NCBI GenBank assembly: GCA_027490225.1
Contig: JAIXYK010000035.1
Coordinates: 62,001-126,000, forward strand
Origin: Bacteroidota bacterium
GTDB lineage: Bacteria; Bacteroidota; Bacteroidia; M30B66
Direction: 5' to 3'
Length of the DNA: 64,000 nt
The notes beneath the pieces were generated by a model that saw only the letters and a program-made list of their open reading frames with translations, did not search any database and was not told where the DNA came from. Below are positions 20,010 to 50,070 of the stretch, in pieces (within the stretch, counting starts at the first letter, position 1; each line of letters begins with the position of its first letter). The translations under genes were made by a program, and so were the position numbers.

Positions 20010-20831
20010 ATGGCTAACTTTCTTGCAACGAAAAAAGGAAAACGTGTTATGGGCATGGTTTACGGTATCGGCGCCGCTATCGTAATCGTAGGAGCTCTCT
20101 TTAAAATTCTTCACTGGCCAGGGGCTAACCAAATGCTTACAGTTGGTTTATTAACTGAAGCTGTTATTTTCTTTATATCAGCTTTTGAAAAACCTCACGA
20201 AGAGCCAGATTGGTCGCTTGTTTATCCTGAATTAGCCGGCATGCACGAAGATGATGGTAGTCACGGCGCAATTGACAAGAACAGAAAAGCTCAGGGTTCG
20301 AAAAGCGATGCTGTATCTCAACATCTAGATAAAATGCTTGAGGACGCTAAAGTTGGTCCTGAATTAATTGAAAGTTTAGGAAACAGCCTTAAGGCTCTTG
20401 GAGATAATACATCTAAGCTTGTTGATATTACAGACGCTTCTGTTGCAACAAACGACTATATAAGCAACATCAAGAAGGCTTCAACTTCTGTAGAAGGCTT
20501 ATCTGATTCTTATATAAAAGCATCAGAGTCTTTAACTGGTTTATCTATGACAAATCAAGACGGAGCCACTTATGGAGAACAATTGCAAAAAGTTTCTAAG
20601 AACTTATCTGATTTGAACTCTGTATATGAACTTCAATTAAGAGGTGCTGAGCAGCATACACAAGCAACAAATAAATTCTATGATGGAATTGAACAATTAA
20701 TGAGTAATCTACAAGATTCTGTTTCTGACACTAAAAAATACAAAGAGGAAATGTCTCAACTAACAACGAATCTAACTTCTTTGAATACAATTTATGGTAA
20801 TATGTTAGGTGCAATGTCAACTAACCGATAA
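20010..20831 (+). CDS. gldL: Gliding motility/T9SS motor protein GldL (PorL)
   Basis: A 273-residue inner membrane protein. Two N-terminal transmembrane helices (about 14-33 and 40-58) contain the conserved GALFKILHWPGANQML and LLTEAVIFFISAFEKP segments. Intramembrane glutamates at residues 50 and 60 fit the positions implicated in proton coupling in the F. johnsoniae motor. The rest is a cytoplasmic, Ser/Thr- and Leu-rich coiled-coil domain. GldL with GldM forms the proton-driven rotary motor that powers T9SS and gliding. It is in an operon with gldK, gldM and gldN. Confidence 0.95.
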   Translation: MANFLATKKGKRVMGMVYGIGAAIVIVGALFKILHWPGANQMLTVGLLTEAVIFFISAFEKPHEEPDWSLVYPELAGMHEDDGSHGAIDKNRKAQGSKSDAVSQHLDKMLEDAKVGPELIESLGNSLKALGDNTSKLVDITDASVATNDYISNIKKASTSVEGLSDSYIKASESLTGLSMTNQDGATYGEQLQKVSKNLSDLNSVYELQLRGAEQHTQATNKFYDGIEQLMSNLQDSVSDTKKYKEEMSQLTTNLTSLNTIYGNMLGAMSTNR

Positions 20832-20867
20832 TTTAAATATTTTTTTAACCATAAAAACACATAAAAA

Positions 20868-22448
20868 ATGAGTGGCGGTAAAGAAACCCCAAGGCAGAAG
20901 ATGATTGGTATGATGTACTTAGTACTCACCGCATTGTTGGCCTTAAATGTATCAAAGGAAATATTAGACGCTTTTGTTATTGTTAATAACGGTTTAGTGC
21001 AGACTGATAAAAATTTCAATAACAACAACAGCATTCTTTATAAATCTATCAAAGATCAGCTTGCAATTGCGCCAGATAGAGCAAAAGATGCTGCTGTAGG
21101 AGCTGATAAATTAAAGAAACTGGCTGCCGATATGTACAATCATATTACAGCTATAAAGTCTGAACTTATTGTAGCGGAAGACCAAATAGATAAAGCTGCG
21201 GCCGACAAAATTGTAGATAGTTTAGGCTCTCTTCAAAACAAAGATAAGTATGACAATTCAACGAGAATTATGTGCGGTGAAACACCTGATGGCTCTGGTG
21301 GAAAAGCAAGAATTTTAAAAGATAAAATAATTGCCTTTAAAAAAGAGCTTGTTTCCTTATTACCTGAAGCTGTTAGAAAAACTACTAATCTTGGCCTAAA
21401 TACAGAAGACCCTCCTAAAAAAGGAGTTGAGATTGAAACATGGGAAACAGAAAAGTTCTACCATCTTCCAATTGCAGCCCAAATAGTAGTTCTTTCTCAG
21501 TTACAAACAGAGGTAAGAAATGCTGAAGGAACTGTGTTAAATGAACTTTTTAAATCTATCGGAGCTACAGCTATAAAAGTAGATGCACTAGAGGCACAGT
21601 TAGTTCCATCTGCAAATGTGGTAACTGTTGGTGATGAATTTACTGCTAAAATATTTGTTGCGGCTTTAAATAAATCTGATGTTCCAGACGTTAGTGTAAA
21701 TGGAAGACAAATTACTGAAACAGATGAAAGTGGTTTTATTGTTTACAAGTCGCGCCCAGCTTCAGAAGGTCCTCAAAAAATCAAAGCAACAGTAAAGTAC
21801 AAAGACGCAAAAGGTTTGGATGCTGTTTCAGAAAAAGAATTTGAATTTGTAGCTATTAAACCAGTTGCCGTAGTTTCCCCTAGTAAAATGAATGTTTTCT
21901 ACATTGGTGTAGACAATCCTGTTTCTGTTTCTGTACCGGGTTCTGACCCTAACAAAGTAGAAGCTAGTTTAGTGGGTGCGCAAGGAACTTTAACTAAAGT
22001 AAAACCAGGAGAATACATTGCTAAAGTAACAGGAGGAACGAAGTGTACAATTCCTGTAACAGCTAAAAAACCAGATGGAAAAGGAACCACAAACATGGGA
22101 GCTCCGGAGTTCCGTATTAAACGTATTCCTGACCCAACACCTATGATTCTAGGTAAAAAAAGCAATGAGAGTATCTCTCTTTCTGAGTTAAAAGCCGCAG
22201 GATTTATTTCTTGTGTATTGGAAAACTTTGATTTTCAAGCGGGCTTTAGTGTTTTAAGTTTCGAATTTGGTGCTAATGTTGGAGGTGCTTATAGAAGCGC
22301 CAACAATACTGGTGGTAAATTCGGTTCAGAAATGGCAACAATATTGAACAGCTTAAAGCCAGGAAGTAAAGTTTTCTTCTCCGACATCAAAGCAAAAGGT
22401 CCTGATGGTTCTGTAAGAAACCTTTCTGCTCAATTTAAGATTAAATAA
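20868..22448 (+). CDS. gldM: Gliding motility/T9SS motor protein GldM (PorM)
   Basis: A 526-residue protein with one N-terminal transmembrane helix (GMMYLVLTALLALNVSKEI, about 14-35) inserted in the GldL pentamer. A long periplasmic region follows: a helical D1 domain (about 40-220) and then beta domains D2-D4 (for example EFTAKIFVAALNKSDVPDVS and the C-terminal LENFDFQAGFSVLSFEF). The periplasmic dimer transmits torque to the GldKN ring. It starts 36 bp after gldL and ends 23 bp before gldN. The length is normal for the family. Confidence 0.95.
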   Translation: MSGGKETPRQKMIGMMYLVLTALLALNVSKEILDAFVIVNNGLVQTDKNFNNNNSILYKSIKDQLAIAPDRAKDAAVGADKLKKLAADMYNHITAIKSELIVAEDQIDKAAADKIVDSLGSLQNKDKYDNSTRIMCGETPDGSGGKARILKDKIIAFKKELVSLLPEAVRKTTNLGLNTEDPPKKGVEIETWETEKFYHLPIAAQIVVLSQLQTEVRNAEGTVLNELFKSIGATAIKVDALEAQLVPSANVVTVGDEFTAKIFVAALNKSDVPDVSVNGRQITETDESGFIVYKSRPASEGPQKIKATVKYKDAKGLDAVSEKEFEFVAIKPVAVVSPSKMNVFYIGVDNPVSVSVPGSDPNKVEASLVGAQGTLTKVKPGEYIAKVTGGTKCTIPVTAKKPDGKGTTNMGAPEFRIKRIPDPTPMILGKKSNESISLSELKAAGFISCVLENFDFQAGFSVLSFEFGANVGGAYRSANNTGGKFGSEMATILNSLKPGSKVFFSDIKAKGPDGSVRNLSAQFKIK

Positions 22449-22471
22449 ACCCTTAACTAAAATCTAGTTCA

Positions 22472-23323
22472 ATGAGTTTTTTAAAAGCGATAATTATTCC
22501 TGCTGTATTTATAACTTCTGTTATGAGCGCACAGTCGGTTCTAGATAATGTTTACGTTAGAGAAACATTACCAGCTAGAAAACCCATTCCTTATGCCCCG
22601 CTCAGAGAGGCAGATGTATTGTGGAAGAAACGTGTATGGAGAATCATTGATTTAAGAGAGAAGATAAACCTACCTCTTTTCTACCCAATTCAAGGAGAAA
22701 TTAATGGTTTAAAAAGCTTATCGAATTTACTTTACAAAGCAACAACAGAAGAGGTCTCATTAAGAGTATATTCTGATTATCCTGATGACTTTACAGTTGA
22801 AATGACTCCAGGAGACGTTATTAAAAGAGTGTCGAAAGAGGATTCTATTCCTATGAAAAGCCAAGTTGATCCAAGTCTAGACAGCTTGAATGCTGATGGA
22901 ACTCTATTCTACAAAAAAATTAAAGAAGAATTTACTCCTAGTCGCGTTAAAAAATTCTTGTTAAAAGAAGAATGGTTTTTTGATAAGCAACGCTCTGTTT
23001 TAGATGTTAGAATTCTTGGTATTTGTCCTCTTTATGAAATGGAAGATAAAGAAAAAGGAGACAGATATTTGTTTTGGGTGTATTTCCCAGAAGCAAGAAA
23101 AGTACTTGCCAATCATGATGTTTTTAACAGGTCTAACCCTTCAGAAAGAAGATCATTTGATGATATTTTTTGGAAAAGGCAATTTAGCAGCTACATTGTA
23201 AAAGAAGAGAATGTTTACGATAGAACAATTGCTGAATACAAAAAAGGAATGGACGCGCTTCTAGAAGCTCAAAAAATTAAAGACGAGATTATTATATTTG
23301 AGCACGATTTGTGGGAATTCTGA
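22472..23323 (+). CDS. gldN: Gliding motility/T9SS protein GldN (PorN)
   Basis: A 283-residue periplasmic protein with a signal peptide (IIPAVFITSVMSAQS). It has the family features VYVRETLPARKPIPYAPLRE, ADVLWKKRVWRIIDLREKIN, PLFYPIQGE and RVKKFLLKEEWFFDKQRSVL, then YFPEARKVLANHDVFN. GldN/PorN forms the GldKN ring that contacts the periplasmic end of GldM. It is the last gene of the operon and is followed by a strong terminator at 23363. Confidence 0.95.
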   Translation: MSFLKAIIIPAVFITSVMSAQSVLDNVYVRETLPARKPIPYAPLREADVLWKKRVWRIIDLREKINLPLFYPIQGEINGLKSLSNLLYKATTEEVSLRVYSDYPDDFTVEMTPGDVIKRVSKEDSIPMKSQVDPSLDSLNADGTLFYKKIKEEFTPSRVKKFLLKEEWFFDKQRSVLDVRILGICPLYEMEDKEKGDRYLFWVYFPEARKVLANHDVFNRSNPSERRSFDDIFWKRQFSSYIVKEENVYDRTIAEYKKGMDALLEAQKIKDEIIIFEHDLWEF

Positions 23324-29135: not shown

Positions 29136-32059
29136 TAATTAAAAATCTCTTTGAGTGTTAAAACTTGAACTTTACCGTATTTATTAAGCTTACTAACATC
29201 AATTCTATCTTTAGAACCCACAATAGATATTACCTGATTCTTCGCTTTGATTTCATTGGCATGAAAAGCCTGCATTTCTGAAAAGCTTAATTGGTTTGTT
29301 TTTTCGAAGATATCTTTCCTAATATCATATGTATTATTTAATCTTTTAGATTTGAGGTAGTAAAAGAGTATTTTATCGTTCAGAATTCTTTCTGATGCAG
29401 CAACGCTCGTTATAGATTTTTTTGCATTTTCAAATAGCGTTTCTGAGATTGGTATTTCTCTAATTAACGCGTTAACTGAAACTATTGCAGAATCTAGTTT
29501 ATCTGCTTGTGTACCCACATAAGCAAGAAAGTTTGCTGGGCTTGTAGAATTTGTAGGGTTTTTATAATCTGCATATGTTGAGTAAGCCAAAGCTTTTGAT
29601 TCTCTTATAGTTTGAAAGAAAACAGATGCCATTCCCGCTCCGTAATATTCATTAAAAACTTCAATTAAAGGTGCTTTTCTAGAATCGTAATTTGCTCCTT
29701 GTGAATTCCAGTTTATTTCAGCTTGCACCATGTCGAAGTCTGTAAAATATACTTGTGGTTCTGTATATTGAATTTGATTGAAAACTCTATTTGTAGGAGA
29801 TTCGTTTAGAGTTTTAGGAATCGTATGATATTTTGCAATTAAAGACTTTGCACTTTTTAAATCTCTTGGACCAAAATAAAGCACCTTGTGATCATAGCTA
29901 AAAATTTCATGAATCTTTTCTTCAATATCTTTTGTTTTAAGCCGCTTTAATTCCTTATTACTTATCTGCGTGGTTGTTGGGTTTTCGGCACCAAATTTAG
30001 CGTAGTTATTAAGCGCTCTTCTAATAGCATTTTTATCAAAGTTATTGTTTTCTCTTTCTTGAAGTATATTATTTACAAGGTCTTCCAAAACATCTTCATC
30101 TCCTTTCAAATTCTTTATCAAATAATCTAAAATAGAAATAGCTCTTTCGAATGTAGAATCTGGTCCATTGAGTTGTATGTACATTTGTTCGTCTGCAACA
30201 GAAACATTGAAAGAGCATGCGAGATTATAAAATTCTTTCGATAAATTACTCGAAGACTGTTTATCAGTACCACACAATTTTAACATTTCGAGCGCTATTG
30301 GTAGTTTTTGGTCAGCATATCGTCCGAATTCAAACACATAATTCAAAGTAAATAAATTATTTTTCTTATTGGGCGTATATAAGATTTGACAATTACTTGA
30401 AATAGAATCTTTCAAAATGTCTTTATCAAAATCAATAAACTGAGGTTTAACTTCTGTTATCTCATTATCCATGATATTCTTAACAAATCGGGAAATTTTA
30501 TCTCTGTTTAAAGGAACTGGGTGGATTTCTGGTTTAATAATTTTAACCGAAACAGTATCCTTTCCCTGTCTTTTATAAATTATTGAACAGTTGTTTTTAA
30601 GTTGTGTTTTAGCATAAACAACCAAATCAATTTTTTTAGTTTTCATCATTTGAATTGGTTCATTTAATTTTTTACTAAAGGGAATTTCTTTCGTAAATGA
30701 ATTAAGCAGAGAAAATGCTGTACTTGTTATATCTGCGTAAGACTTTTCGTTTTTAACTTTTAAATTAAATCCAGCAGATGAAATTAATTTTTCATCAAAT
30801 TTTCCAAATTTTAGAGAGTCTATTTGTGCCAATAATATGTCTTTCACTTGTTCTAAAGTTTGGCCTTGTTTAGGATAACCTCTTAAGATTAAAACGTTAT
30901 TATCTTTATTTTCCTCCAAATAAGCTGAAGCATCTAATACCAATAGTTTCTTATTGATGTTTAAATCTATTAATCCTGCTACAGAATTTTCTAATACTTC
31001 TTTAAGTAAAATAGATTTGTAATTTTCTGGTGATTGCATGCCTGGTAATCTATAACCTATAGTTACAAACTCTGTTTCTTCTCCTAAAACTTCAATAGGA
31101 ACTATTTTATCTTTTGACTTTTCTGGTACAAGTTTTCTTTTTTTCACTTCTTTCGGCACCATGTAGCTGAAGTTCTTTTCAATCTTAGCTAGTGTTTCTT
31201 CAGGATCAAAATATCCAGATAATATGATAGCCATATTATTTGGAACATAATTTTGCGTGTAATATTCTCTTATTTTGCTTAAGGAAGGATTTTTAAGATG
31301 CTCTGTTTTCCCAATTGTTGTTTGCAAACCATAATTATGATTCTTAAACAAATCTGCAAACATCACCTCATAAACTTTCTCTTCATCGTTATCCAGAGAA
31401 ATGTTTTTTTCTTCATACACTGCTTCCAGTTCAGTATGAAACAATCTTAAAACAGGATTTCTAAATCTTTCGCCTTCTATTTCTAACCAAGCATCTATTT
31501 GATTAGCAGGAATGTCATTTATATAAACAGTTTCTTCGAAAGAAGTGAAAGCATTGGTTCCTTGTGCACCAATATTTTGGACCATTTTATCGTATTCATT
31601 TGCTATAGAATATTTTGCTGCTATGGCAGAAACAGAATCTATTTTAGCATAGATTACTTTTCGTTGTTTTTCGTCTTTTACCTTGTTATAATTTTCATAA
31701 AGGGCTTCAATTTGGTCTAGATAAACCTTCTCTTGAACATAATCAGATGTTCCAAAACGATCTGTCCCTTTAAAAAGCATATGTTCTAAATAATGCGCTA
31801 ATCCAGTATTATTTTTTGGATCGTTGTTACTTCCCGCCTTAACTGCAATACATGTATAAATTCTAGGTTTATCAATATTAACAGACATGATAACAGTTAA
31901 GCCATTTTTTAAAATGTATTTCCTGGATTTGGTTGGATCGCCTTCAAAATAAGTATATACATATCCTTTTGAAGAATCCTTCTTTTCTTTGAAGAATTGT
32001 GCATTAGAAGATAAAGAACATAAAATTAAAAAGGTGATTGTTAAAAATTTCATTCGCAT
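29132..32059 (-). CDS. M16-family (insulinase/pitrilysin) zinc metallopeptidase
   Basis: A 975-residue secreted or periplasmic peptidase with a signal peptide (FLTITFLILCSLSSNAQ). The inverted zinc motif HxxEH is in GLAHYLEHMLFKGTDRFG, and the downstream third ligand is in ELEAVYEEKNISLDND. Two M16 halves follow, with the second half (for example DFDMVQAEINWNSQGANYD, EYYGAGMASVFFQTIRESKALAY) lacking the metal site, as usual for long members. It probably degrades peptides in the periplasm. It starts 24 bp after nadA and is coupled by overlap to the MORN gene. Confidence 0.95.
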   Translation of the reverse strand: MRMKFLTITFLILCSLSSNAQFFKEKKDSSKGYVYTYFEGDPTKSRKYILKNGLTVIMSVNIDKPRIYTCIAVKAGSNNDPKNNTGLAHYLEHMLFKGTDRFGTSDYVQEKVYLDQIEALYENYNKVKDEKQRKVIYAKIDSVSAIAAKYSIANEYDKMVQNIGAQGTNAFTSFEETVYINDIPANQIDAWLEIEGERFRNPVLRLFHTELEAVYEEKNISLDNDEEKVYEVMFADLFKNHNYGLQTTIGKTEHLKNPSLSKIREYYTQNYVPNNMAIILSGYFDPEETLAKIEKNFSYMVPKEVKKRKLVPEKSKDKIVPIEVLGEETEFVTIGYRLPGMQSPENYKSILLKEVLENSVAGLIDLNINKKLLVLDASAYLEENKDNNVLILRGYPKQGQTLEQVKDILLAQIDSLKFGKFDEKLISSAGFNLKVKNEKSYADITSTAFSLLNSFTKEIPFSKKLNEPIQMMKTKKIDLVVYAKTQLKNNCSIIYKRQGKDTVSVKIIKPEIHPVPLNRDKISRFVKNIMDNEITEVKPQFIDFDKDILKDSISSNCQILYTPNKKNNLFTLNYVFEFGRYADQKLPIALEMLKLCGTDKQSSSNLSKEFYNLACSFNVSVADEQMYIQLNGPDSTFERAISILDYLIKNLKGDEDVLEDLVNNILQERENNNFDKNAIRRALNNYAKFGAENPTTTQISNKELKRLKTKDIEEKIHEIFSYDHKVLYFGPRDLKSAKSLIAKYHTIPKTLNESPTNRVFNQIQYTEPQVYFTDFDMVQAEINWNSQGANYDSRKAPLIEVFNEYYGAGMASVFFQTIRESKALAYSTYADYKNPTNSTSPANFLAYVGTQADKLDSAIVSVNALIREIPISETLFENAKKSITSVAASERILNDKILFYYLKSKRLNNTYDIRKDIFEKTNQLSFSEMQAFHANEIKAKNQVISIVGSKDRIDVSKLNKYGKVQVLTLKEIFNY

Positions 32060-32083: not shown

Positions 32084-33073
32084 TTAAAGTCCCAAAGTAG
32101 CCGAAATTTCTAACATTCTTCTGATTGGGGTTTCTGCTTTTCTTCTGAGTTCCTCCTCCATCAGTAGCTCAGGAGTTTCTTGCAAAAGGCATAAATAGAC
32201 TTTTTCAAGTGTATTCAATTTCATATGCGGGCAATCATTACATGCACAAGAATTATTTGGAGGTGCCGGAATAAAAGTTTTATCTGGTGCTGACTTAGAC
32301 ATTTGATGTAAAATGCCACTTTCTGTTGCTACAATAAACTCCTTTTTATCGCTTTTAATTGCAAAATTCAAAAGAGCAGTAGTTGAACCAATAAAATCTG
32401 CTAATTCTAACACTGGTTGTTCACATTCTGGATGAGCAATTAACAGTGCATTTGGATAACGTTGCTGTAACCTTAAAATCTTTTCACGTGAAAAAATCTC
32501 ATGAACCATGCAAGCTCCATCCCATAAAACCATATCTCTTCCTGTTTTTTGCATTACCCATCTCCCTAAATTTTTATCTGGTGCAAAAATTATCTTTTGA
32601 TTTTTAGGTAAACTTTCTACAATTTGAACTGCATTAGATGAAGTACAGATTATGTCTGTTAAAGCTTTAATTTCTGCAGTGCAGTTGATGTATGAAATTA
32701 CAATATGATCGGGATGTGCATTTTTAAATAGTTCAAATCGATCGGCTGGACAACTTTCGGCCAGAGAACAACCGGCTCTTAAATCTGGAAGTAGAACTTT
32801 CTTATCGGGACAAAGTATTTTAGCGGTTTCTGCCATAAAATGGACACCTGCAAAAACAATAACATCTGCTTTTGTTTTAGCGGCTTGTTGAGATAACCCA
32901 AGACTATCGCCGATGTAATCTGCAATATCTTGAATATCGCTGTCCTGGTAATAGTGTGCAAGTATGATGGCATTTTTCTCTTTTTTAAGTCTTGCAATTT
33001 CTGCAAATAAATCCAATGAAGGATCAATTGATTTTGGAGCGTATCCATTTTTCAAAACATCAACAGTCAACAT
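32084..33073 (-). CDS. nadA: Quinolinate synthase A
   Basis: A 329-residue 4Fe-4S enzyme that condenses iminoaspartate with dihydroxyacetone phosphate to quinolinate in NAD synthesis. Recognisable blocks are [42 protein letters not shown] and [18 protein letters not shown]. Cluster cysteines are in GCSLAESC, in [10 protein letters not shown], and in the C-terminal [18 protein letters not shown]. It reads away from the AT-rich divergent region at 33074-33571. A parS-like TTTTCACGTGAAAA lies inside the coding sequence at 32481. Confidence 0.96.
32481..32494. promoter_or_regulatory. parS-like palindrome inside nadA (variant)
   Basis: TTTTCACGTGAAAA is a perfect 14-bp palindrome with the CACGTG core of ParB-binding parS, but its outer base pair differs from GTTTCACGTGAAAC. 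It could be a weak third site or chance in AT-rich coding DNA. Confidence 0.35.
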
Positions 33074-33571
33074 ATTATTATTAATATTTTTTATAAAATA
33101 GTTTAGTAGTAATTAATATAGCTGTTAATACTGTTTGCAAAAAGCATCGCACTTTCTTGCTTATTTATTAAAGATGTTTTTTTCACAGTTTATAAACATA
33201 TATATTTTTGCAAAAGTCATTGATTATTATGAATTTTCAATGGTAATTAACAATTGTTAGCAAAGTAATTTAGTTTATATCTTTTTTTATAAAAGAGATG
33301 CTTCCTCTGTTAACAGAATGTTATCTGTTTGTTATAGCAAAATTAGAAGTTATACTTGACATGAATAGATTTAATTTTTATAGCAGCACTTTTATTAAAT
33401 TGTCAATGGTTTTTGATATTTAGTTTTAAGCCAGTATTAACAATTATTAACACAATGATTGTTAAAATCTTAATTTTTAAAGTATTCATTTTCAGAAAAG
33501 TAATTTTTGAGGAAAAACTATGGTTGATAAGTGAATACTGTTGCATAAATTTGTTTTTTCAAATAGATTTT
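33074..33571. other. Candidate oriC: AT-rich divergent intergenic region with DnaA-box-like repeats
   Basis: This 498-bp gene-free stretch lies between divergent nadA and rpiB. It holds a cluster of 9-mers close to TTATnAACA (the E. coli-type TTATnCACA with C to A at position 6): GTATTAACA inverted at 33123-33131 and direct at 33434-33442, TTATAAACA at 33190-33198, TAATTAACA at 33244-33252 and TTATTAACA at 33444-33452. The last two direct copies are 10 bp apart, one helical turn. A 12-bp palindrome TCTGTTAACAGA is at 33306-33317. The right end also carries the rpiB promoter. Chance matches are raised by base composition, so this is inference; the parS sites about 5 kb away add support. Confidence 0.45.
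33524..33553 (+). promoter_or_regulatory. Predicted promoter for rpiB
   Basis: TTG at 33524-33526, a 19-bp spacer and TAAATTTG at 33546-33553 match the Bacteroidota -33/-7 pattern well. The start of transcription would fall about 12 bp before the ATG at 33572. Confidence 0.6.
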
Positions 33572-34000
33572 ATGAAGATAGTTATTGGTTGCGACCATGC
33601 AGGATTTGAGTTAAAGAATACTATTCTTACTTATTTCAACGACAATGATATTGAGTGGGTAGATATTGGAACTTTTTCTAAAGATAGCATGGATTATCCT
33701 GATATTGCGCATCCAGTAGCTGAATTGGTTGAAAAGCGAGAATTTGACTTTGGCGTTTTAATATGTGGTAGTGCAAATGGTGTTGCTATCTCTGCAAATA
33801 AACATAAAAACATAAGAGCAGCAATTTGTTGGAACAATGAAATAGCATCTTTAGCAAGACAGCATAACAATGCCAATATTATTTGCTTACCAGCAAGATT
33901 TATTGTGAAGGAAAGTGCATTTCAAATGCTTGATACATTTTTTAATACTAAATTTGAAGGTGGCAGACACCAAAATAGGGTTCAAAAAATTGATTGCTAA
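33572..34000 (+). CDS. rpiB: Ribose-5-phosphate isomerase B
   Basis: A 142-residue RpiB/LacAB-family isomerase that interconverts ribose-5-phosphate and ribulose-5-phosphate. The N-terminus MKIVIGCDHAGFELK, the loop DYPDIAHPVAELVE, the active-site ICGSANGVAISANKH with the conserved Gly-rich turn, and NIICLPARFI are all family hallmarks. The open frame extends upstream to 33413, but that part is hydrophobic, AT-rich translation of the intergenic region and is rejected. The ATG at 33572 fits both the family N-terminus and the promoter. Confidence 0.95.
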   Translation: MKIVIGCDHAGFELKNTILTYFNDNDIEWVDIGTFSKDSMDYPDIAHPVAELVEKREFDFGVLICGSANGVAISANKHKNIRAAICWNNEIASLARQHNNANIICLPARFIVKESAFQMLDTFFNTKFEGGRHQNRVQKIDC

Positions 34001-38322: not shown

Positions 38323-38336
38323 GTTCCACGTGGAAC
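38323..38336. promoter_or_regulatory. parS-type ParB-binding site 1
   Basis: GTTCCACGTGGAAC is a perfect 14-bp palindrome matching the conserved parS consensus. It sits 7 bp before the mnmG start codon, inside the predicted 5' leader. parS sites nucleate ParB for chromosome segregation and usually cluster near oriC. Confidence 0.85.
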
Positions 38337-38343
38337 ATTCACT

Positions 38344-40212
38344 ATGTTTGAAAAGTATGATGTAATTGTTGTAGGAGGAGGTCATGCCGGTTGTGAAGCA
38401 GCTGCGGCCGCCGCAAATATGGGTTCAAAAGTACTATTGGTGACCATGAATATGGCTACAATTGGTCAAATGTCTTGCAACCCTGCTATGGGTGGTATTG
38501 CAAAGGGCCAAATTGTTAGAGAAATTGATGCGATGGGCGGATATTCGGGAATCGTTTCAGATAAAACGGCGATTCAGTTCAAAATGTTAAATCGTTCAAA
38601 GGGACCTGCAATGTGGAGTCCCCGTGCTCAGAATGACAGGATGCGTTTTGCTGAAGAGTGGAGATTAATGTTGGAAAGAACTCCAAATGTAGATTTCTTT
38701 CAAGATATGGTGAAAGAGCTAATAATTGAAAATGATACTGTAAAAGGAGTAATTACAGGGCTAGGGTTGTCTATTCGTTCGCAAAGCGTAATTTTAACAA
38801 ATGGTACTTTTTTGAACGGACTAATTCATATTGGGACGAAAAATTTTGGAGGCGGACGATCAGCAGAATCAGCCGCTTTTGGAATAACTGAGCAATTAAC
38901 ATCACTTGGTTTTAGAAGTGGAAGAATGAAAACAGGAACTCCGCCTAGAGTGGATGGTCGTTCTTTAGATTATTCTGTTATGATTGAGCAACCAGGAGAT
39001 GAGAACCCGCAAAAATTCTCTTATTCTAATACTGAAACATTAAAGAAACAACTTTCATGTTGGATGACATATACCAGTGAAAGTGTTCATGATGAACTTC
39101 GAAAAGGCTTTGATAGATCTCCTATGTTTTCAGGAAGAATTCAGGGTCTTGGTCCAAGGTATTGCCCCTCAATTGAAGATAAAATTGAGAGATTTGCAGA
39201 CAAAGACAAGCACCAGCTTTTTATTGAACCTGAAGGTTGGAACACAGTAGAGGTTTACGTGAATGGTTTTTCAACAAGCTTACCAGAAGAAGTTCAAATG
39301 GAAGCCTTGAGGAAAATAAAAGGATTCGAGAAAGTAAAAATGTTTCGTCCTGGATATGCAATAGAGTACGATTATTTCCCTCCACAACAATTGCAGCTGT
39401 CATTAGAAACCAAAGCAATTAAGAACTTGTTTTTTGCTGGTCAAATTAATGGAACAACAGGTTATGAAGAAGCCGCTGGACAGGGAATAATTGCTGGAAT
39501 AAATGCTCATTTATTAATAAAGAATGAAGCGCCATTAATTCTCAAGCGTTCAGAAGCGTATTTAGGTGTTTTGATAGATGACCTCGTAACAAAAGGCACA
39601 GAAGAACCTTACAGGATGTTTACATCACGCGCCGAATATCGAATTTTATTAAGACAAGATAATGCTGATTTCAGATTAACAGAAAAGTCATTTAATTTAG
39701 GATTAGCTTCTCAAGATAGAATGAATGCTGTTGAGGAGAAATATATTAAGGTTGATTCTTTTTTGAAAGAGTTAAAGAAGCAAAGTGTGGAGCCCAATGA
39801 AGTAAATGAATATTTGAATAATGTTGGCTCCTCCCCTATTCACCAAAAACTGAAGATTAATGGTTTAATATCTAGACCAAGTGTTTCCTTACCAGATATG
39901 TTACCGTACATAAAAGGAATTAAGGATTTTGTTGAAACAAAGTTTTTAAACAGTGAAGAAGTAGAGGAAGCTGAAATTTTAATTAAGTACGAGGGTTATA
40001 TTCAGAAAGAGCAAGAGGTGGCTAATAAACTATTGAGGCTAGAACATATAGAACTTCATTCTAATTTTGACTATGCTTCATTACAGAGTCTTTCTTCAGA
40101 AGCAAGACAAAAATTATCTGCAATTAAGCCTAAGAATATTGGGCAAGCTTCTCGAATTAGTGGAATATCTCCATCAGATATTTCTGTTTTAATGGTTTAT
40201 TTAGGAAGATAA
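38344..40212 (+). CDS. mnmG: tRNA uridine-5-carboxymethylaminomethyl modification enzyme MnmG
   Basis: A 622-residue FAD enzyme (GidA) that, with MnmE, modifies U34 of tRNAs decoding split codon boxes. The dinucleotide-binding motif is VVGGGHAGCEAAAAAANMG, and the two hallmark blocks CNPAMGGIAKGQIVREIDAM and RTGTPPR-type MKTGTPPRVDGRSLDYS are present. GQINGTTGYEEAAGQGIIAG and the C-terminal helical domain (INGLISRPSVSLPDMLPYI) complete it. Both ends are flanked by parS-type palindromes. MnmG is a common neighbour of the replication origin in bacteria. Confidence 0.98.
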   Translation: MFEKYDVIVVGGGHAGCEAAAAAANMGSKVLLVTMNMATIGQMSCNPAMGGIAKGQIVREIDAMGGYSGIVSDKTAIQFKMLNRSKGPAMWSPRAQNDRMRFAEEWRLMLERTPNVDFFQDMVKELIIENDTVKGVITGLGLSIRSQSVILTNGTFLNGLIHIGTKNFGGGRSAESAAFGITEQLTSLGFRSGRMKTGTPPRVDGRSLDYSVMIEQPGDENPQKFSYSNTETLKKQLSCWMTYTSESVHDELRKGFDRSPMFSGRIQGLGPRYCPSIEDKIERFADKDKHQLFIEPEGWNTVEVYVNGFSTSLPEEVQMEALRKIKGFEKVKMFRPGYAIEYDYFPPQQLQLSLETKAIKNLFFAGQINGTTGYEEAAGQGIIAGINAHLLIKNEAPLILKRSEAYLGVLIDDLVTKGTEEPYRMFTSRAEYRILLRQDNADFRLTEKSFNLGLASQDRMNAVEEKYIKVDSFLKELKKQSVEPNEVNEYLNNVGSSPIHQKLKINGLISRPSVSLPDMLPYIKGIKDFVETKFLNSEEVEEAEILIKYEGYIQKEQEVANKLLRLEHIELHSNFDYASLQSLSSEARQKLSAIKPKNIGQASRISGISPSDISVLMVYLGR

Positions 40213-42557: not shown

Positions 42558-44153
42558 TTAGTATCCTGAGTTTTGTTTTAAGTTTGGATTTGCTGTAATG
42601 TCAGCGAATGGAATAGGGTAGAGGTTGTAGTTATCAGCAACACTTGTTCCTGCGCTTACTCCACCTTTCCAAGGCCATATATAGCTTCCTCCAGTAAACT
42701 TGCCGAAACGAATTAAATCTGTGCGGCGGTGACCTTCCCAGTAAAGTTCTCTAGCTCTTTCGTCTAATATAAAATCTAATGTTAAGTCAGCAGATGTTAT
42801 ATTGAAGTTGGAATTACCATAAGCGCGTTCTCTTAGTTGATTAATGTAAGATACAGCAGTTCCTTCAATTCCATTTGCCCCTCCTCGTTTCGTTGCTTCA
42901 GCGTATGTCAAATACACTTCTGCGAGACGGAAAAGAGGAAAATCAACATCGGCAAAATTTACCGGGTCAGAACCTTTACTTAAGTCTTTATTGATGTTTC
43001 TGAATTTTCTAATACCATAGCCATTTGTAAACGTAGCCAATGTGTTTATTTCAGGAGTGTGGCCTTGTCTAAAGAAAAGGAATCTTCCATCTAGTGTAGA
43101 ATCAACAAATTTATTGTATAAACCTGTAGTTGTTCTTAAACCGAACCATCCACCAGCACTAATTCCGAAACTATCTGCAGCAAACCAAGTTGGCCCACCA
43201 ACTGGTGCGTGTACTAAGTAAGTTGTTCCTCCGTAAGTTTTAGTTCTTGTTCCATCAAAACAAATAGGAAAAATAATTTCATTAGAAGTATGATTATCTG
43301 CAAAGAACAAGTGTTTGTAGTTTGGCTCTAAAGAGAAGTTACCTTCATTTAGAACTTTATTACAATAGATGATACAATCTGAATTTCTATCAGAACCGGT
43401 AAAAACTTGAGCATTTAAATAGAGTTTCGCAAGTAACATTTGAACGGCACTTTTATTAGCTCTTCCGTATTCACTTTCTGCTCTAGAGGAGATTAATCCT
43501 TCTACTTCTTTAAGTTCACTTTCGATGTATGAGAATAATGCTGTTTTAGTAAATTGTTCAGGGAACTCTCCTCCAGGAAATTTAGTTTCGTCAGATGTAT
43601 TCGGAATATTACCATATAAATCTAAACCGTGAAACATACTCAATGCTTTTAAAAATCTGGCTTCTGCTCTGTATTTTGCAATTTTTGCTTTATCTTCTGC
43701 ACCAAAACCGCGGTCATCTAATCTGCTTTCTTCACTTTGACGAATAAATTCATTGCACAATGTAATTTGATACATGATTCTGTTGTAAAGAACTGTAACG
43801 AACTCATTACGAGAGCTCCATGTCATTTTGTTTAATTCTTGAATAGTTCCATCGTTCCAAGCAATTACAGCTTCGTCTGTTGGCAATTCTTGTAATTGCC
43901 AAAATTGTCTTAGGTATTGAGAAAAGCCTTCATCAATTCCTACCAAATCTGCGTTTCCTGCTGGACCACTTTGGCCACTAACAGCTAAACCTGCGTAGCA
44001 TTTAGCTAAAACGTGAATGTAGTTTTCGGGTTTCTCGTAAACCGTTAAAGAGGTTTCGAGGTTGTATGGTTGTCTATCTAAATCTTTGATACATCCTGGA
44101 AAAAAACCAATTAAAGATGCAATTCCGAGTATTAGTATAAGTTGTTTTTTCAT
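42558..44153 (-). CDS. susD: SusD/RagB-family nutrient-binding lipoprotein
   Basis: A 531-residue outer membrane lipoprotein that caps the SusC channel and binds glycan. The signal ends with a lipobox (SLIGFFPGCIKDLDRQPYN). TPR-like helices are visible (AKIAKYRAEARFLKALSMFHG, ANKSAVQMLLAKLYLNAQVF), as are the C-terminal hallmarks DVDFPLFRLAEVYLTYAEA and DERARELYWEGHRRTDLIRFG. I used the ATG at 44153 (MKKQLILIL), since the longer frame at 44168 adds five residues before the signal. It follows susC after 30 bp. The symbol denotes the family only. Confidence 0.93.
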   Translation of the reverse strand: MKKQLILILGIASLIGFFPGCIKDLDRQPYNLETSLTVYEKPENYIHVLAKCYAGLAVSGQSGPAGNADLVGIDEGFSQYLRQFWQLQELPTDEAVIAWNDGTIQELNKMTWSSRNEFVTVLYNRIMYQITLCNEFIRQSEESRLDDRGFGAEDKAKIAKYRAEARFLKALSMFHGLDLYGNIPNTSDETKFPGGEFPEQFTKTALFSYIESELKEVEGLISSRAESEYGRANKSAVQMLLAKLYLNAQVFTGSDRNSDCIIYCNKVLNEGNFSLEPNYKHLFFADNHTSNEIIFPICFDGTRTKTYGGTTYLVHAPVGGPTWFAADSFGISAGGWFGLRTTTGLYNKFVDSTLDGRFLFFRQGHTPEINTLATFTNGYGIRKFRNINKDLSKGSDPVNFADVDFPLFRLAEVYLTYAEATKRGGANGIEGTAVSYINQLRERAYGNSNFNITSADLTLDFILDERARELYWEGHRRTDLIRFGKFTGGSYIWPWKGGVSAGTSVADNYNLYPIPFADITANPNLKQNSGY

Positions 44154-44183
44154 GATTTTAACTTTCAATATGGTGTATTAAAA

Positions 44184-47100
44184 TTAGATTTGAATATTTA
44201 CTCCTAAAGAAAACACTCTAGGGCGAGGATAAAGATTATTGTCAATACCGTTAAATATTTCTGGGTCAACGCCTTTGTACTTTGTAATTAAGAAAGCATT
44301 CTGTATAGTTGCAAACACACGAAGACCAATTTTGTTTTTAAGAATTCTTCCGAAAGAATATCCGATATTGATATTATCAACACGCACAAACCAAGCTTTT
44401 TGTACGTAGTAATCGGAGAAATATTGAGGAACACGGAATTCTGTATTTAAAATATCTGAAGAGCCATTTGAAAGTGTTGGAGATGCTGGTAATAAAGCGT
44501 TTCTGTTTCCGCTGTTTGAAGCAACGTTGCTGTACATGTAATTTCCAAAACTTCCTCTTGCTAACAAACCAAACGTCCAGTTTTTATAAGAAACCTGGGT
44601 ATTGAATCCAAGGAAAAATCTTGGAGCAGGATTTTTATGACGATACAAATCTTGGGAATTGATTTTGCCATCACCATTTAAGTCCTGGTAAGCATCTGTA
44701 TCTCTGTAAATTACACCAGAAGAAGAAGTGTCTCCAACTTCAATTGGTCTATTGTTCTCATCATATTTTTGTTGATATACATAGAAAGTGTTGATTTGTT
44801 GACCAACAGTGTTAATTTGAATTGTATTTCCAACACCACCAGCAATTCCTCCAACAAGGTTTCCAATAGCAGTATCGTTGCTAAATCTGCTTAAAGCTAG
44901 AATTTTGTTTCTATTAGCCGTTAGGTTAAACCCAACAGTCCATTCTAAATCTTTTTTGGCAATAGGAACAGTATTGATTATAAATTCAATCCCTTTGTTT
45001 TCAACAGAACCAACGTTTGTTAGTACTCTATTATTGAAGTTGGTTCCTGCAGGAACATCAATTTCAGCAATCAGATCTTCCGTTTTCTTGTAATAAACAT
45101 CAACGCTACCGTTAACTCTTCCCTTAAAGAAGCCGTAATCTATACCGCCATTATAAGTTGTTGTTGATTCCCATTTAAAGGCTTCATCATATCTGGAAGG
45201 GCGTAAAGTGTAGAAGAACTGATTACCGAATTGGTATTGAGCCGTATTTTCACTTTTACTGTAAATCGGTAAATAATTAAAGTTTACACCAACATCTTGT
45301 TGTCCAGTAACACCATATCCTAATCTTAGTTTTAAATCAGAAAGGTGTTTCATTTTTTTGAATGGCTTTTCTTCGATAATTCTCCAAGCAAAAGCGGCAG
45401 AAGGGAAAAGACCCCAACGAGCAGATTTAGAAAAGCGGGAAGAACCATCGTTTCTTAAAGTACCTGTAAAAAGATATTTTCCATTGAAGGTGTAATTTAA
45501 CCTTCCATAAAAAGAAACTAAAGTATTTTGAGATAACGCGAAAGGAAAAACAGGAGCAAGTGAGCCAGGAATTGTATCAAGGTTCGCTTGAAGGCTTCTA
45601 ATATTTGGCGAAGAAAAGTACCAATCTTGGTATGAGTAACCGCCAATAACATCGATAACACTTTTGATTTTCTTTAAATCCTTTTTGTAATTCAAGTAAA
45701 ACTCAAGTAATTTATTATCTCTATTTTGAACATATGGAGCAAACTGGCCTTTTGCGTTTGAAAAATAATTTGAAGCTGCAGAGTCGGTAACTGTAACCGT
45801 ACCGTTGCTTCTAGCAATATCATAACCTACATTTAAGTTAGCTCTTAGCTCAGGTAAGAAATGAAATTTATAATCAAGTTGAAGGTTACCAATGTTTCTA
45901 AATACCTGACTTTGATCAAGTCTTTGTTCAATAAGTCCCAATGGGTTTCTGCCAGCCAGAGCATTAGGGTTTTTACCATTTAACCATTCGAAATATCCTC
46001 CAAAACGGTCGCTATTTGTTCTTGGTTCTTGAGTTGGGTCAAATCCAATTGCAGCTCCAATTGCTCCTTGATTTGCGAATGTTGAATTACTTAAAGTTGC
46101 TTTTTGGTTGATTTCGACTTTTAAGTGGTCTTTAAAAAAGGTTGGAGATAAATTGAAGTTCGCTGTGCTTCTTTTCATGTTGTCGGTAATTAAAACACCA
46201 TTTTGATTTAAATATCCTAGAGACAAGCGATATGGTAATTTTTTAATTCCTCCTGAAAAATTTATAAGGTTATCAGATGAGATTGCGGTTCTGTAAATTA
46301 ATTCTTGCCAGTTTGTATTGGCCGTACCCATTAATTTTGTTTTGTTAGTATCATTCGTGCTATTTATGATTCCACGGAATTCATCAGCAGATAAAACGTC
46401 AACTAATCGCGTAACATTTGCCACAGAATTAACAGAATTAACTTCTACTTTAAACGCGTCTGTTTTTCCTTTTTTAGTCGTGATAATGATTACACCATTT
46501 GATGCTCTAGAACCATAAATTGCTGTAGCAGAAGCATCTTTTAGAATGGTCATATTCTCAATATCGTTCGGGTTAATTAAACTCAAAGGATTAGGAGAAC
46601 CAGCGATTCCGTCATTTGCTAAAGGAACACCATCAATTACAATTAAAGGGTCGTTGCTTGCGTTTAACGAAGAACCTCCCCTAATTCTAATTGTACTTCC
46701 TGAACCAGGAGAACCTCCGTTTGGAGTAATTTGAACACCAGCTACTTTACCACTAATTAATTGCTCAGGTGTATTGATATTTCCTTTTAAGAAGTCTTTT
46801 GAACTAACTGATGCAACAGCTCCTGTTAAGTCTTTCTTTTCGGTGGAACCGTAACCTATTACTACTACTTCATTTAAGTTATTCCCGCTTGGAACCATGT
46901 TAAACTTCAAATCTACTGTTTGACCTGCTTTAACATTTACTGAGCGAACTTCTTTCTGATATCCAATGAAAGAAACTTCCACAATATTAGTTCCTTCTTT
47001 CGGGGCCTGAATAGTGAATTTTCCATCAAGGTTTGTGGTCATACCGATAGTTGTGCCTTGAATTCTTGCGGCCGCACCTATCATTGTTTGGCCCGTTTCG

Positions 47101-47189
47101 TCTAAAACAGTACCGTTAATTGTTTGAGCAAACGCAGCAGAACTTGCAAAACAAAATAGAATTAATAGAGTCCGTAGAAATTTATTCAT
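44184..47189 (-). CDS. susC: SusC/RagA-family TonB-linked outer membrane transporter
   Basis: A 1001-residue TonB-dependent glycan importer. A signal peptide ending AAFAQ is followed by the carboxypeptidase-regulatory domain (INGTVLDETGQTMIGAA, about 24-108). The SusC signature (NEVVVIGYGSTEKKDLTGAV) then leads into the plug (IRIRGGSSLNASNDPLIVID, ILKDASATAIYGSRASNGVI), and the large barrel ends RVFSLGVNIQI. Paired directly with susD and the secreted amylase, it probably imports malto-oligosaccharides. The symbol denotes the family only. Confidence 0.95.
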   Translation of the reverse strand: MNKFLRTLLILFCFASSAAFAQTINGTVLDETGQTMIGAAARIQGTTIGMTTNLDGKFTIQAPKEGTNIVEVSFIGYQKEVRSVNVKAGQTVDLKFNMVPSGNNLNEVVVIGYGSTEKKDLTGAVASVSSKDFLKGNINTPEQLISGKVAGVQITPNGGSPGSGSTIRIRGGSSLNASNDPLIVIDGVPLANDGIAGSPNPLSLINPNDIENMTILKDASATAIYGSRASNGVIIITTKKGKTDAFKVEVNSVNSVANVTRLVDVLSADEFRGIINSTNDTNKTKLMGTANTNWQELIYRTAISSDNLINFSGGIKKLPYRLSLGYLNQNGVLITDNMKRSTANFNLSPTFFKDHLKVEINQKATLSNSTFANQGAIGAAIGFDPTQEPRTNSDRFGGYFEWLNGKNPNALAGRNPLGLIEQRLDQSQVFRNIGNLQLDYKFHFLPELRANLNVGYDIARSNGTVTVTDSAASNYFSNAKGQFAPYVQNRDNKLLEFYLNYKKDLKKIKSVIDVIGGYSYQDWYFSSPNIRSLQANLDTIPGSLAPVFPFALSQNTLVSFYGRLNYTFNGKYLFTGTLRNDGSSRFSKSARWGLFPSAAFAWRIIEEKPFKKMKHLSDLKLRLGYGVTGQQDVGVNFNYLPIYSKSENTAQYQFGNQFFYTLRPSRYDEAFKWESTTTYNGGIDYGFFKGRVNGSVDVYYKKTEDLIAEIDVPAGTNFNNRVLTNVGSVENKGIEFIINTVPIAKKDLEWTVGFNLTANRNKILALSRFSNDTAIGNLVGGIAGGVGNTIQINTVGQQINTFYVYQQKYDENNRPIEVGDTSSSGVIYRDTDAYQDLNGDGKINSQDLYRHKNPAPRFFLGFNTQVSYKNWTFGLLARGSFGNYMYSNVASNSGNRNALLPASPTLSNGSSDILNTEFRVPQYFSDYYVQKAWFVRVDNINIGYSFGRILKNKIGLRVFATIQNAFLITKYKGVDPEIFNGIDNNLYPRPRVFSLGVNIQI

Positions 47190-47214
47190 ATGTTAACTTT
47201 TAAAGGGGATTTAT

Positions 47215-50070
47215 TTATTGTTTGATAATTTTTCCTGTAAATGATTTTCCATTTATTTGAGTCGTGTAAAAATATATACCTGTATTTATTTCACTAGTGT
47301 TCAAAATAAAGGAATTCAAAGGGTCAACATTTAGTGTTGAAACTTTTTTCACAATTCTTCCTGAAATATCTGAGATAACTAATTCAGAATTTTTGTTAGG
47401 TGTTTCTGGGAATCTAAAGAAAATTTCATCTGAAAAAGGATTTGGGAAAACTACCATTTGATTTTCGTTCTCTCCGATTTCATTAACGCCTGTAACTATT
47501 TCGTAATTATTTGCAGGAGGTTTAATTCTCTTATTTGTATACACGTGAAACTCTCCCGCTGCAAGATTTAAAGTAACATCTGTATTGTTAATGTTAAGAC
47601 TATCACCAGTTAAGTAATCGTACCATTTTCCTGATTGTGTAAAATAGGGTTGACAGCCCCAATTCACAACATTGAAGTTTCCAACAACAATTACATCAAG
47701 GTCGTTACTGTCGTATTTTATGAATTTAGTCCAATCGCCCAAACTGTATTGAGGGTAGAGGTCTCTCATAACAGGGAAGTTTGTTTTGAGGTAATTCATT
47801 TTTCTTGTTACTTCAAAGCAAGCTCTTCTACCAGACGCAGAATAATAGTCCCAACGAATTGGTTTAGAGACTGTTCTGCAATCTGTACTTATTGAGCCAT
47901 TTGAACAACGGTTAATTGAATAGTCATAGCCTAATTCGCCAAATTGCCAGATCATTTTAGGACCAGGAGTCGCAATAAGGAAAGTATTTGCTGCAGCCAT
48001 TCTGTTTACAGCTGTTCCTAAGTCTCTTGTGTTGTAACCCCCAGAAGCATTACCAAAGTTCAGGTTTTTATACATTAACCTTTCTTCGTCATGGCTTTCT
48101 GCATAAGTTACCATTCCGTAATTATTCCAGCCTCTTCTCCAATGGGTTGATTCATAAAGATTCATGTTGGTAAGGAAGCCCATAGTTGCCTGGTTATAAG
48201 CTTCGGTACCTTTTGCCCAAACCATCATTCCATTATTAGCATATTGAATTTCTTCATCCCAAACACCAAGATGTTCTAAGATTAAATGAGAGTTTGGGTC
48301 TGTTTGGCGAATGTGAGCAGCATATTCGTTAATGATATTTACTCTACTTTGGTCATAATTACCCCAAGCCCCAACATTTGAGCCTGAATTTGTTTGTGTA
48401 AAACCTTTACTTAAGTCGAAACGGTATCCATCTATTTTGTATTCATCAATCCAATGTTTAGTAACTTTTTTAACGAAGTATTTAGTAGCTTGACTTTCGT
48501 GATTAAAGTCGTATCCAACGTTGAAAGGATGTGTTGCTACTGTATTAAACCAAGGGCTTTGTCCAGTTGGAGCTCCATTATTAAAGTACATTTGAACCAT
48601 TGGATTTTGACCAAACGAATGATTAAAAACAACATCTAAAATAACAGCAATCCCATTTGCGTGGCAAGAGTCTACCAATCTTTTGAATTCATTTCTGGTA
48701 CCGTAGAATTTATCTACTGCCATAAAAAACATTGGATTGTAACCCCAACTTTCGTTTCCTTCATACTCAGCTACTGGCATTAATTCTATAGCGTTAATGC
48801 CTAGTGCTTTTAAATATGGCATTTTTTCTATTAATCCAGTGAAATTTCGCTTTGTTGAGAAATCATGAATCCAGCATTCGTAAATAACTAAATCTGATTT
48901 CGGTGGACGATTGTAAGTATAAGAGTTATCCCAAGTGTAAGCAGGATATTGTGTTTGAAGCACTCCAACTATTCCAGCCCCTTTTCCTGATGGATAATCT
49001 TTATTTTCAGGATAAGCTGTACCTGTGATATATTGATCATTATTAGGGTCTAGAATTTTTTCACAATAAGGGTCAGTAACTCTTTGACCTTCCCAACCAA
49101 TGTGATATTGGAATCTATATTCCTGATTAGGGTCTAAACCTGTAATTTCGATCCAGTAATGTTGACCATCAGCGGTTCTCTTCATGTTGTATTCAGGAAG
49201 GAATTGCCAATTATTAAAATCACCTAAGACGTATACGAATTCCTTAAATGGCGCTCTAAATTGTAAGTAAGCTGTTGTTGCATTTGGATAAATGATTCCT
49301 TCAGAACCGTATGAAGGAACTTCTGCAATTGTAACGCCGTTGTGAACAGTTAGTAACAAGGTGTCACGAATTATTGCGGTATCAATATCTGCAACAAAAA
49401 TTAACTCATGCAGACCTCCTGTAAGTAAAGTTGTATTGCACTGGTAAACCAAAGATGTTGTAGATGCCTGAGTTGCGACGTTAACACCATCTAAGAAAAA
49501 ATCTAACTGACAGTTCGCAGAAGACTGACCTACGAAAGCAACTGTTGCATTATTATCAACTAAAATACTTTGTTGTGGATGAGAAGTTATAGCAGCGGCA
49601 AACTGATTTGTATACAAGTCGATAAAGATATCGCCATTAACTGCAGTTTTACCTTCTTGTGTACCATCTACGTTTCTGAAGACCATAGATAAACCAGTAA
49701 TGTTAGCTGATAATGGAACATTTGCGCCATTACCAACAAACCAATCTCTGATACTTGGAGTAAGCGCAAGTGTATAAAAGTTACTTGAGCCTATTCTTGT
49801 CATTTTAACTCTGGCATCTGCTGTGCCCCAAGTTCCTATAACAAACTGCCAGTTTTGGGTTCCAATTTTTAAGCCGATATGTGCATAAACATCTTCATCA
49901 GCTGGCATATCAATTAATCCTGCATTTCCTTGGCTTGCATCAAAAGTTATAGTTGTAGCATTATCTGCAGTAGGAAAAGGAGGATCTAACGTAACAAGTG
50001 CTTGAGCAGATACAAACCCACAAATAAGCACAAGTGAAAAAACACGAATTAAAGTATTGAGATGGTTCAT
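47215..50070 (-). CDS. GH13 alpha-amylase with CBM48-like module and type IX sorting domain
   Basis: A 951-residue secreted glycoside hydrolase. After the signal peptide (ending SAQA) come two beta domains, then a CBM48-like module (PFKEFVYVLGDFNNWQF, about 270-345). The GH13 barrel has region I DVVFNHSF (about 478), region II GYRFDLSK with the nucleophile Asp (about 549), region III ILEHLG with the acid/base Glu (about 596) and region IV AESHDEER with the stabilising Asp (about 659). A T9SS sorting domain ends it (VVFPNPFSDEIFFRFPE, NTGIYFYTTQING). It is first in the SusCD run and probably hydrolyses starch or glycogen outside the cell. Confidence 0.93.
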   Translation of the reverse strand: MNHLNTLIRVFSLVLICGFVSAQALVTLDPPFPTADNATTITFDASQGNAGLIDMPADEDVYAHIGLKIGTQNWQFVIGTWGTADARVKMTRIGSSNFYTLALTPSIRDWFVGNGANVPLSANITGLSMVFRNVDGTQEGKTAVNGDIFIDLYTNQFAAAITSHPQQSILVDNNATVAFVGQSSANCQLDFFLDGVNVATQASTTSLVYQCNTTLLTGGLHELIFVADIDTAIIRDTLLLTVHNGVTIAEVPSYGSEGIIYPNATTAYLQFRAPFKEFVYVLGDFNNWQFLPEYNMKRTADGQHYWIEITGLDPNQEYRFQYHIGWEGQRVTDPYCEKILDPNNDQYITGTAYPENKDYPSGKGAGIVGVLQTQYPAYTWDNSYTYNRPPKSDLVIYECWIHDFSTKRNFTGLIEKMPYLKALGINAIELMPVAEYEGNESWGYNPMFFMAVDKFYGTRNEFKRLVDSCHANGIAVILDVVFNHSFGQNPMVQMYFNNGAPTGQSPWFNTVATHPFNVGYDFNHESQATKYFVKKVTKHWIDEYKIDGYRFDLSKGFTQTNSGSNVGAWGNYDQSRVNIINEYAAHIRQTDPNSHLILEHLGVWDEEIQYANNGMMVWAKGTEAYNQATMGFLTNMNLYESTHWRRGWNNYGMVTYAESHDEERLMYKNLNFGNASGGYNTRDLGTAVNRMAAANTFLIATPGPKMIWQFGELGYDYSINRCSNGSISTDCRTVSKPIRWDYYSASGRRACFEVTRKMNYLKTNFPVMRDLYPQYSLGDWTKFIKYDSNDLDVIVVGNFNVVNWGCQPYFTQSGKWYDYLTGDSLNINNTDVTLNLAAGEFHVYTNKRIKPPANNYEIVTGVNEIGENENQMVVFPNPFSDEIFFRFPETPNKNSELVISDISGRIVKKVSTLNVDPLNSFILNTSEINTGIYFYTTQINGKSFTGKIIKQ

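Follow-up and report, generated by a model that had tools for sequence, protein, structure and literature searches.

An AT-rich spacer between nadA and rpiB as the highly probable chromosomal replication origin of a Bacteroidota bacterium

Replication origins linked to dnaA are common in bacteria. In Bacillus subtilis, the basal origin unwinding system (BUS) of oriC is composed of DnaA-boxes 6/7, a GC-rich gap and DnaA-trios (PMC8287927; PMC6669920), and the rule used to search for such systems asks for a box, a spacer of up to 16 bp (most often 10–13) and at least three (.A.) trios, the boxes often being tandem (PMC8287927). Deviation of the box itself is described for epsilonproteobacterial origins, where an altered, clade-specific box was considered alongside residue changes in DnaA domain IV, at the beginning of helix 5, with Lys at position 432 (PMC5043019); residues 432 and 435 of DnaA both belong to those that contact bases (PMC5043019; PMC7561715). 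Here, we describe a spacer between nadA and rpiB which is very probably the chromosomal replication origin (oriC) and represents a variant within an established class of elements rather than a new kind. No earlier description of nadA/rpiB-linked origins or of Bacteroidota boxes was found in the open literature searched, though a prior DoriC prediction is possible.

Like the BUS of B. subtilis, the module found in this spacer comprises tandem boxes, a short GC-containing gap and at least three trios within 16 bp followed by AT-rich DNA, with the same polarity; unlike it, the boxes are of TTATNAACA type and not TTATNCACA, the module lies at nadA and not at dnaA, the trios of the copy in the window (the whole 64-kb stretch of DNA analysed) are partly degenerate, and unwinding is predicted. 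With predicted oriCs of the Ori-Finder/DoriC type the spacer shares skew, box cluster, intergenic position and nearby mnmG, the differences being the lack of TTATCCACA and nadA as the marker gene. The window's clade resembles epsilonproteobacteria in having an altered box and Lys432 in DnaA, but the change affects position 6 (C to A), Thr435 is also replaced by Ala, and the link between protein and box is partial.

The initial annotation had proposed a 498-bp, gene-free, AT-rich divergent spacer, and this description holds: GC content is 21%, no gene lies inside, and the sole listed open reading frame reaching into it is the TTG-extended frame of rpiB. The five 9-mers reported there as near-matching a DnaA box all lie at the positions given (33123 on the minus strand, 33190, 33244, 33434, and 33444), two of them indeed 10 bp apart (33434 GTATTAACA and 33444 TTATTAACA, the latter exact), and the reported palindrome is present as well. 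The spacer, its flanking genes and its dispersed elements are as follows.

33074–33571, no strand: oriC candidate spacer, 498 bp, AT-rich, divergent, between nadA and rpiB
32084–33073, minus strand: nadA (quinolinate synthase), origin-flanking; NCBIfam NF006878/TIGR00550, above cut-off
33572–34000, plus strand: rpiB (ribose-5-phosphate isomerase B), origin-flanking; TIGR01120, above cut-off
33190–33198, plus strand: predicted DnaA box TTATAAACA, exact
33244–33261, plus strand: predicted inverted box pair TAATTAACA / TTGTTAGCA, each with at least one mismatch
33306–33317, no strand: palindrome TCTGTTAACAGA, then TGTTATC; L014 and L015, of the same family, have the related TCTGTTAAGAGAATGTTATC
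33434–33452, plus strand: predicted tandem DnaA boxes GTATTAACA-a-TTATTAACA, 10-bp period

Compared with Markov-1 shuffles of the spacer, exact TTATNAACA sites are in excess (2 vs. 0.15 expected, P 0.012), and so are sites with up to one mismatch (10, eight of them with one mismatch, vs. 3.1 expected, P 0.005), making this intergenic cluster of boxes the densest TTATNAACA stretch within the window. Across the whole window exact copies stay at expectation (8 vs. 7.6), so the box signal is one of clustering, and the case must rest on clustering together with relatives. The warning given at the outset that AT-richness alone yields chance 9-mers was fair, and comparison with relatives dispels that concern: over the spacers of 32 loci, words with A at position 6 (TTATNAACA) number 44 vs. 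5.2 expected and those with C 16 vs. 1.8, whereas G and T in this position (any first base) are unenriched (1 vs. 2.1 and 7 vs. 11.0, respectively). De novo k-mer counting, which used no prior motif, returned TTATTAACA as the most over-represented 9-mer of origin spacers and placed TTATTAACA, CTATTAACA, and TTATCAACA all within the top four. The classical box TTATNCACA with C at position 6 has no exact copy in the spacer, both exact sites carrying A there, and TTATCCACA with up to one mismatch gives zero matches, so that a default box search might overlook the origin. The 10-bp tandem pair recurs in eight of nine spacers from the family to which the window belongs (null mean 0.05, maximum 1, 500 shuffles), mostly 134–163 bp from rpiB. 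A second word, TTGATAACA / TGTTATCAA, is also over-represented in origin spacers (8 vs. 0.5 expected; window 33300–33330 and related spacers), and TGTTATC adjoins the palindrome in the window's family.

The initial annotation missed the core unwinding module, which occupies the nadA end of the spacer.

33074–33103, plus strand: AT-rich stretch, putative DUE, reaching the nadA start codon (direct reading; TTTTTAAAA-like run conserved in the aligned module)
33104–33112, plus strand: predicted DnaA-trios TAGTAGTAA, 3′-AAT GAT GAT-5′ outward from box 1 at a distance of 10 nt
33120–33122, plus strand: AGC, a short spacer with GC that separates the trios from box 1; G/C conserved across most loci
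33123–33131, minus strand: predicted DnaA box 1 GTATTAACA (TGTTAATAC on the plus strand); TGTT in 32/32 loci, best model match
33132–33140, minus strand: predicted DnaA box 2, abutting box 1 and weaker (TGTTTGCAA on the plus strand); tandem second site

Box 1, the 10-nt spacer and the trios agree with the BUS rule of a box plus at least three (.A.) trios within 16 bp running 3′–5′ away from it, and the boxes are bordered by AT-rich DNA suited to unwinding, with the conserved TTTTTAAAA-like run lying past the trios. The order of parts is common to 32 spacers: an AT-rich run, about 20 nt of 3-nt-periodic sequence, two or three bases with G/C (in most loci these immediately precede box 1), box 1 with the consensus TGTTAGTAC, and abutting box 2 reading TGTTnnnAA, in which G occupies the second position in 88% and T the third in 100% of loci. 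Identity at lag 3 in the trio region amounts to 0.484 against a shuffle null of 0.378 (sd 0.018; 32 loci), and comparable lag-3 excess is absent from the rest of the spacers. Since the alignment was anchored on the TGTT word, 13 of its 32 anchors having been placed manually, invariance of TGTT is partly by construction, which does not apply to the flanking columns and the periodicity. An earlier regex/score search for trios was dropped in favor of this anchored alignment because it took wrong anchors in many loci, and an nhmmer model built from Chitinophagaceae was dropped because its scope was too restricted to suit the window's clade.

With the window's family left out of training, a 58-bp model ranks 33123 top in 247 kb of the genome's own DNA (22.3 vs. 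8.1 bits for the runner-up, which also sits at the spacer locus). In relative G137, the same model puts position 480837 at the top of 600 kb (26.9 vs. 9.1 outside that spacer), and in G382 the module comes second by fixed-length score and first by Infernal. The best genome-wide match falls 6–86 bp 5′ of nadA in 22 of 26 untrained genomes. Infernal gives the window's copy just 9.9 bits, level with an unrelated match at 31873, so that this copy is a divergent member of the set; its trios are partly degenerate, and under fast filters the own-genome Infernal search did not list it.

Divergent nadA and rpiB with the AT-rich spacer between them were found in 32 loci from many families, the M16 protease, a large TamB-like protein and mnmG being variable neighbors. 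Spacer length ranges from 426 to 704 bp, with one exception of 1065 bp (L136, genome G382), whose nadA-proximal half is an insertion of degenerate 'gaatagcgaatagcgatt' repeats that separates nadA from the module. On a rival reading, the spacer is only a divergent promoter-operator region of nadA and rpiB, a transcription factor uses the TGTTAACA-like words as operators, and the origin is situated elsewhere. Both genes need promoters in the spacer, and inverted or palindromic words such as TCTGTTAACAGA do resemble operators; promoter-like sites exist too, but without excess over shuffles (6 vs. 5.7). On the other hand, in Chitinophagaceae and Sphingobacteriaceae lacking adjacent rpiB the module is kept upstream of nadA and carries the classical DnaA word, as in CTATTACTATTA-CGGC-TGTGAATTA-GTGGATAA, where TGTGGATAA/TGTGAATAA correspond to the classical DnaA box, while control regions upstream of nadA in cyanobacteria and Saprospiraceae are free of boxes. 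Operators would also leave trios, tandem boxes, skew minimum and parS unexplained, and we hold this reading to be very improbable. Rfam returned for the spacer a sub-threshold nse_sRNA alone (28 vs. 75 bits), which is taken as chance.

The window belongs to a contig of 147,476 bp (C42) in a 66-contig draft assembly of 3.77 Mb, and skew was calculated for this contig. At that scale the cumulative GC skew has its minimum at window position 32578, about 0.5 kb from the spacer, and purine (RY) skew at about 33000, in agreement with the minimum within a few kb that the initial annotation had anticipated for the skew of the whole genome. Its statement that origins usually lie near parS and often near mnmG is matched too, since both exact parS sites of the 3.77-Mb assembly bracket mnmG 5–7 kb from the spacer and no others were found.

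38323–38336, no strand: parS site GTTCCACGTGGAAC, exact, immediately before the mnmG start
38344–40212, plus strand: mnmG (gidA), a gene often near origins; TIGR00136, 840 bits
40214–40227, no strand: parS site GTTTCACGTGAAAC, exact, immediately after the mnmG stop

The same neighborhood allows one to suppose that the origin is close by, for instance in the mnmG/parS region, the spacer being an accessory DnaA-binding locus for titration or reactivation. The gene mnmG flanks origins in many bacteria, it is situated directly beyond nadA in some relatives, and parS sites are at hand at 38323 and 40214; yet mnmG and parS shift relative to nadA from genome to genome, whereas the AT-rich spacer keeps its place beside nadA together with the module and the boxes. 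Skew reaches its minimum at nadA rather than at mnmG, and the remainder of the 147-kb contig has no box cluster comparable to the spacer. Thus, a neighboring origin is very improbable. An origin beside dnaA with the nadA locus as a relic, familiar as dnaA linkage is, is scarcely credible given that the own dnaA (contig C43, at about 100.9 kb) shows no clustering of boxes within about 40 kb and no clear reversal of skew (60–140 kb of C43), so that the better cluster next to dnaA, named initially as evidence that would overturn the proposal, was not found, that skew minima are 1.1–1.7 Mb from dnaA in four relatives, and that the module at nadA is strongly conserved.

Genomes with longer contigs point to the nadA-linked origin as well. 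On the megabase contigs of G137 and G382 the sampled skew minimum lies 28 and 46 kb from nadA, respectively; the distance is 46 kb in G329 (single contig of 3.34 Mb) and 365 kb in G108, where sampling was coarse (260 kb) and the fit is accordingly poorer. In all four the minimum is closer to nadA than to dnaA, the latter being 1.1–1.7 Mb from nadA or the skew minimum. The strand-composition switch seen 0.5 kb from the spacer on the window's contig is accompanied by those in relatives, although sampled skew is good but imperfect evidence, because sampled purine-skew minima of G137 and G382 disagree (882 and 1491 kb, respectively). Sites of parS occur 7–23 kb from nadA in six other genomes (G048, G329, G201, G043, G137, and G382). 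Exact box density alone proved unreliable as an origin finder, failing in G137, where a stretch other than the origin spacer has the highest density of exact boxes. The initial proposal that the spacer is oriC or part of it is thus supported by the skew minimum, parS proximity, the box cluster and the conserved nadA-spacer-rpiB arrangement, to which the core module, linkage to nadA over many families and the shift of the box at position 6 are worth adding. The gap adjacent to nadA and far from dnaA appears to serve as the origin across many related families. Two other loci of the window may be recorded here: gldL, gldM, and gldN (type IX secretion) stand in a row at 20010–23323, about 10 kb from the origin, and 42558–50070 holds a cluster of polysaccharide-utilization type with a SusD-like protein, a SusC-like TonB receptor and a T9SS-sorted alpha-amylase.

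Initiation at the spacer, with binding of DnaA, opening of the strands and loading of the helicase, may be pictured from these elements as follows. DnaA would bind TTATNAACA boxes scattered over the spacer, in particular the tandem pair in helical phase (33434/33444) and those at 33190 and 33244, and would nucleate at abutting boxes 1 and 2 (33123–33140), from where the oligomer would extend over the trios (33104–33112) onto the strand carrying TGTTAATAC and open the AT-rich DNA as far as the start of nadA. DnaB would then be loaded for bidirectional replication, and the new origins would be segregated by ParB acting at the pair of parS sites that flank mnmG. In practical terms, the 5′ side of nadA with the 58-bp module offers an anchor for finding origins in a large part of Bacteroidia (the class to which the group is assigned from named relatives such as Chitinophaga, Pedobacter, and Niastella), also in drafts where whole-genome skew cannot serve, and boxes of A type explain why standard TTATCCACA searches may miss such origins.

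The replacement of C by A at position 6 of the box is, as judged from the aligned spacers, a real shift. At the orthologous origin boxes are mainly of C type in Chitinophagaceae and Sphingobacterium and mainly of A type in the window's clade, Pedobacter and Mucilaginibacter. Among the genomes whose DnaA was read, those with the nadA-rpiB pair have CGGKDHATV at the start of helix 5 in domain IV, relatives without the pair have FGGRDHT/STV, and E. coli presumably has FGGRDHTTV. A one-to-one correspondence between Lys432/Ala435 and A-type boxes, predicted beforehand for G201 and G316, failed, both having RDHST together with A-rich boxes, and the same combination is found in Pedobacter and Mucilaginibacter. 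Since these four lack the substitutions, changes in the helix-turn-helix of DnaA only partly track the box shift and are no general explanation of it, although they may contribute in one clade. Whether one ancestral nadA-linked origin was inherited over several families and orders of Bacteroidia independently of dnaA, its box drifting from TTATNCACA to TTATNAACA in some lineages with Arg432Lys and Thr435Ala alongside in the window's clade, is in our estimate an evenly balanced proposition; if true, it would provide a natural series of initiator-origin coevolution. Coevolution of initiator and box in any case becomes testable at one orthologous origin. Box type differs among genera of Sphingobacteriales (C in Sphingobacterium, A in Pedobacter and Mucilaginibacter), and DnaA of this order (L255, L256, L258, L259, L261, and L263–L268) has Tyr in place of the base-contacting His439 of E. 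coli (VIYA vs. VLHA) in addition to Ser435. A second protein with the DnaA C-terminal domain was noticed in G414, G417, G425, and G428, represented by a 504-aa frame in Pedobacter sp. ok626 and by frames of 106–154 aa in the others.
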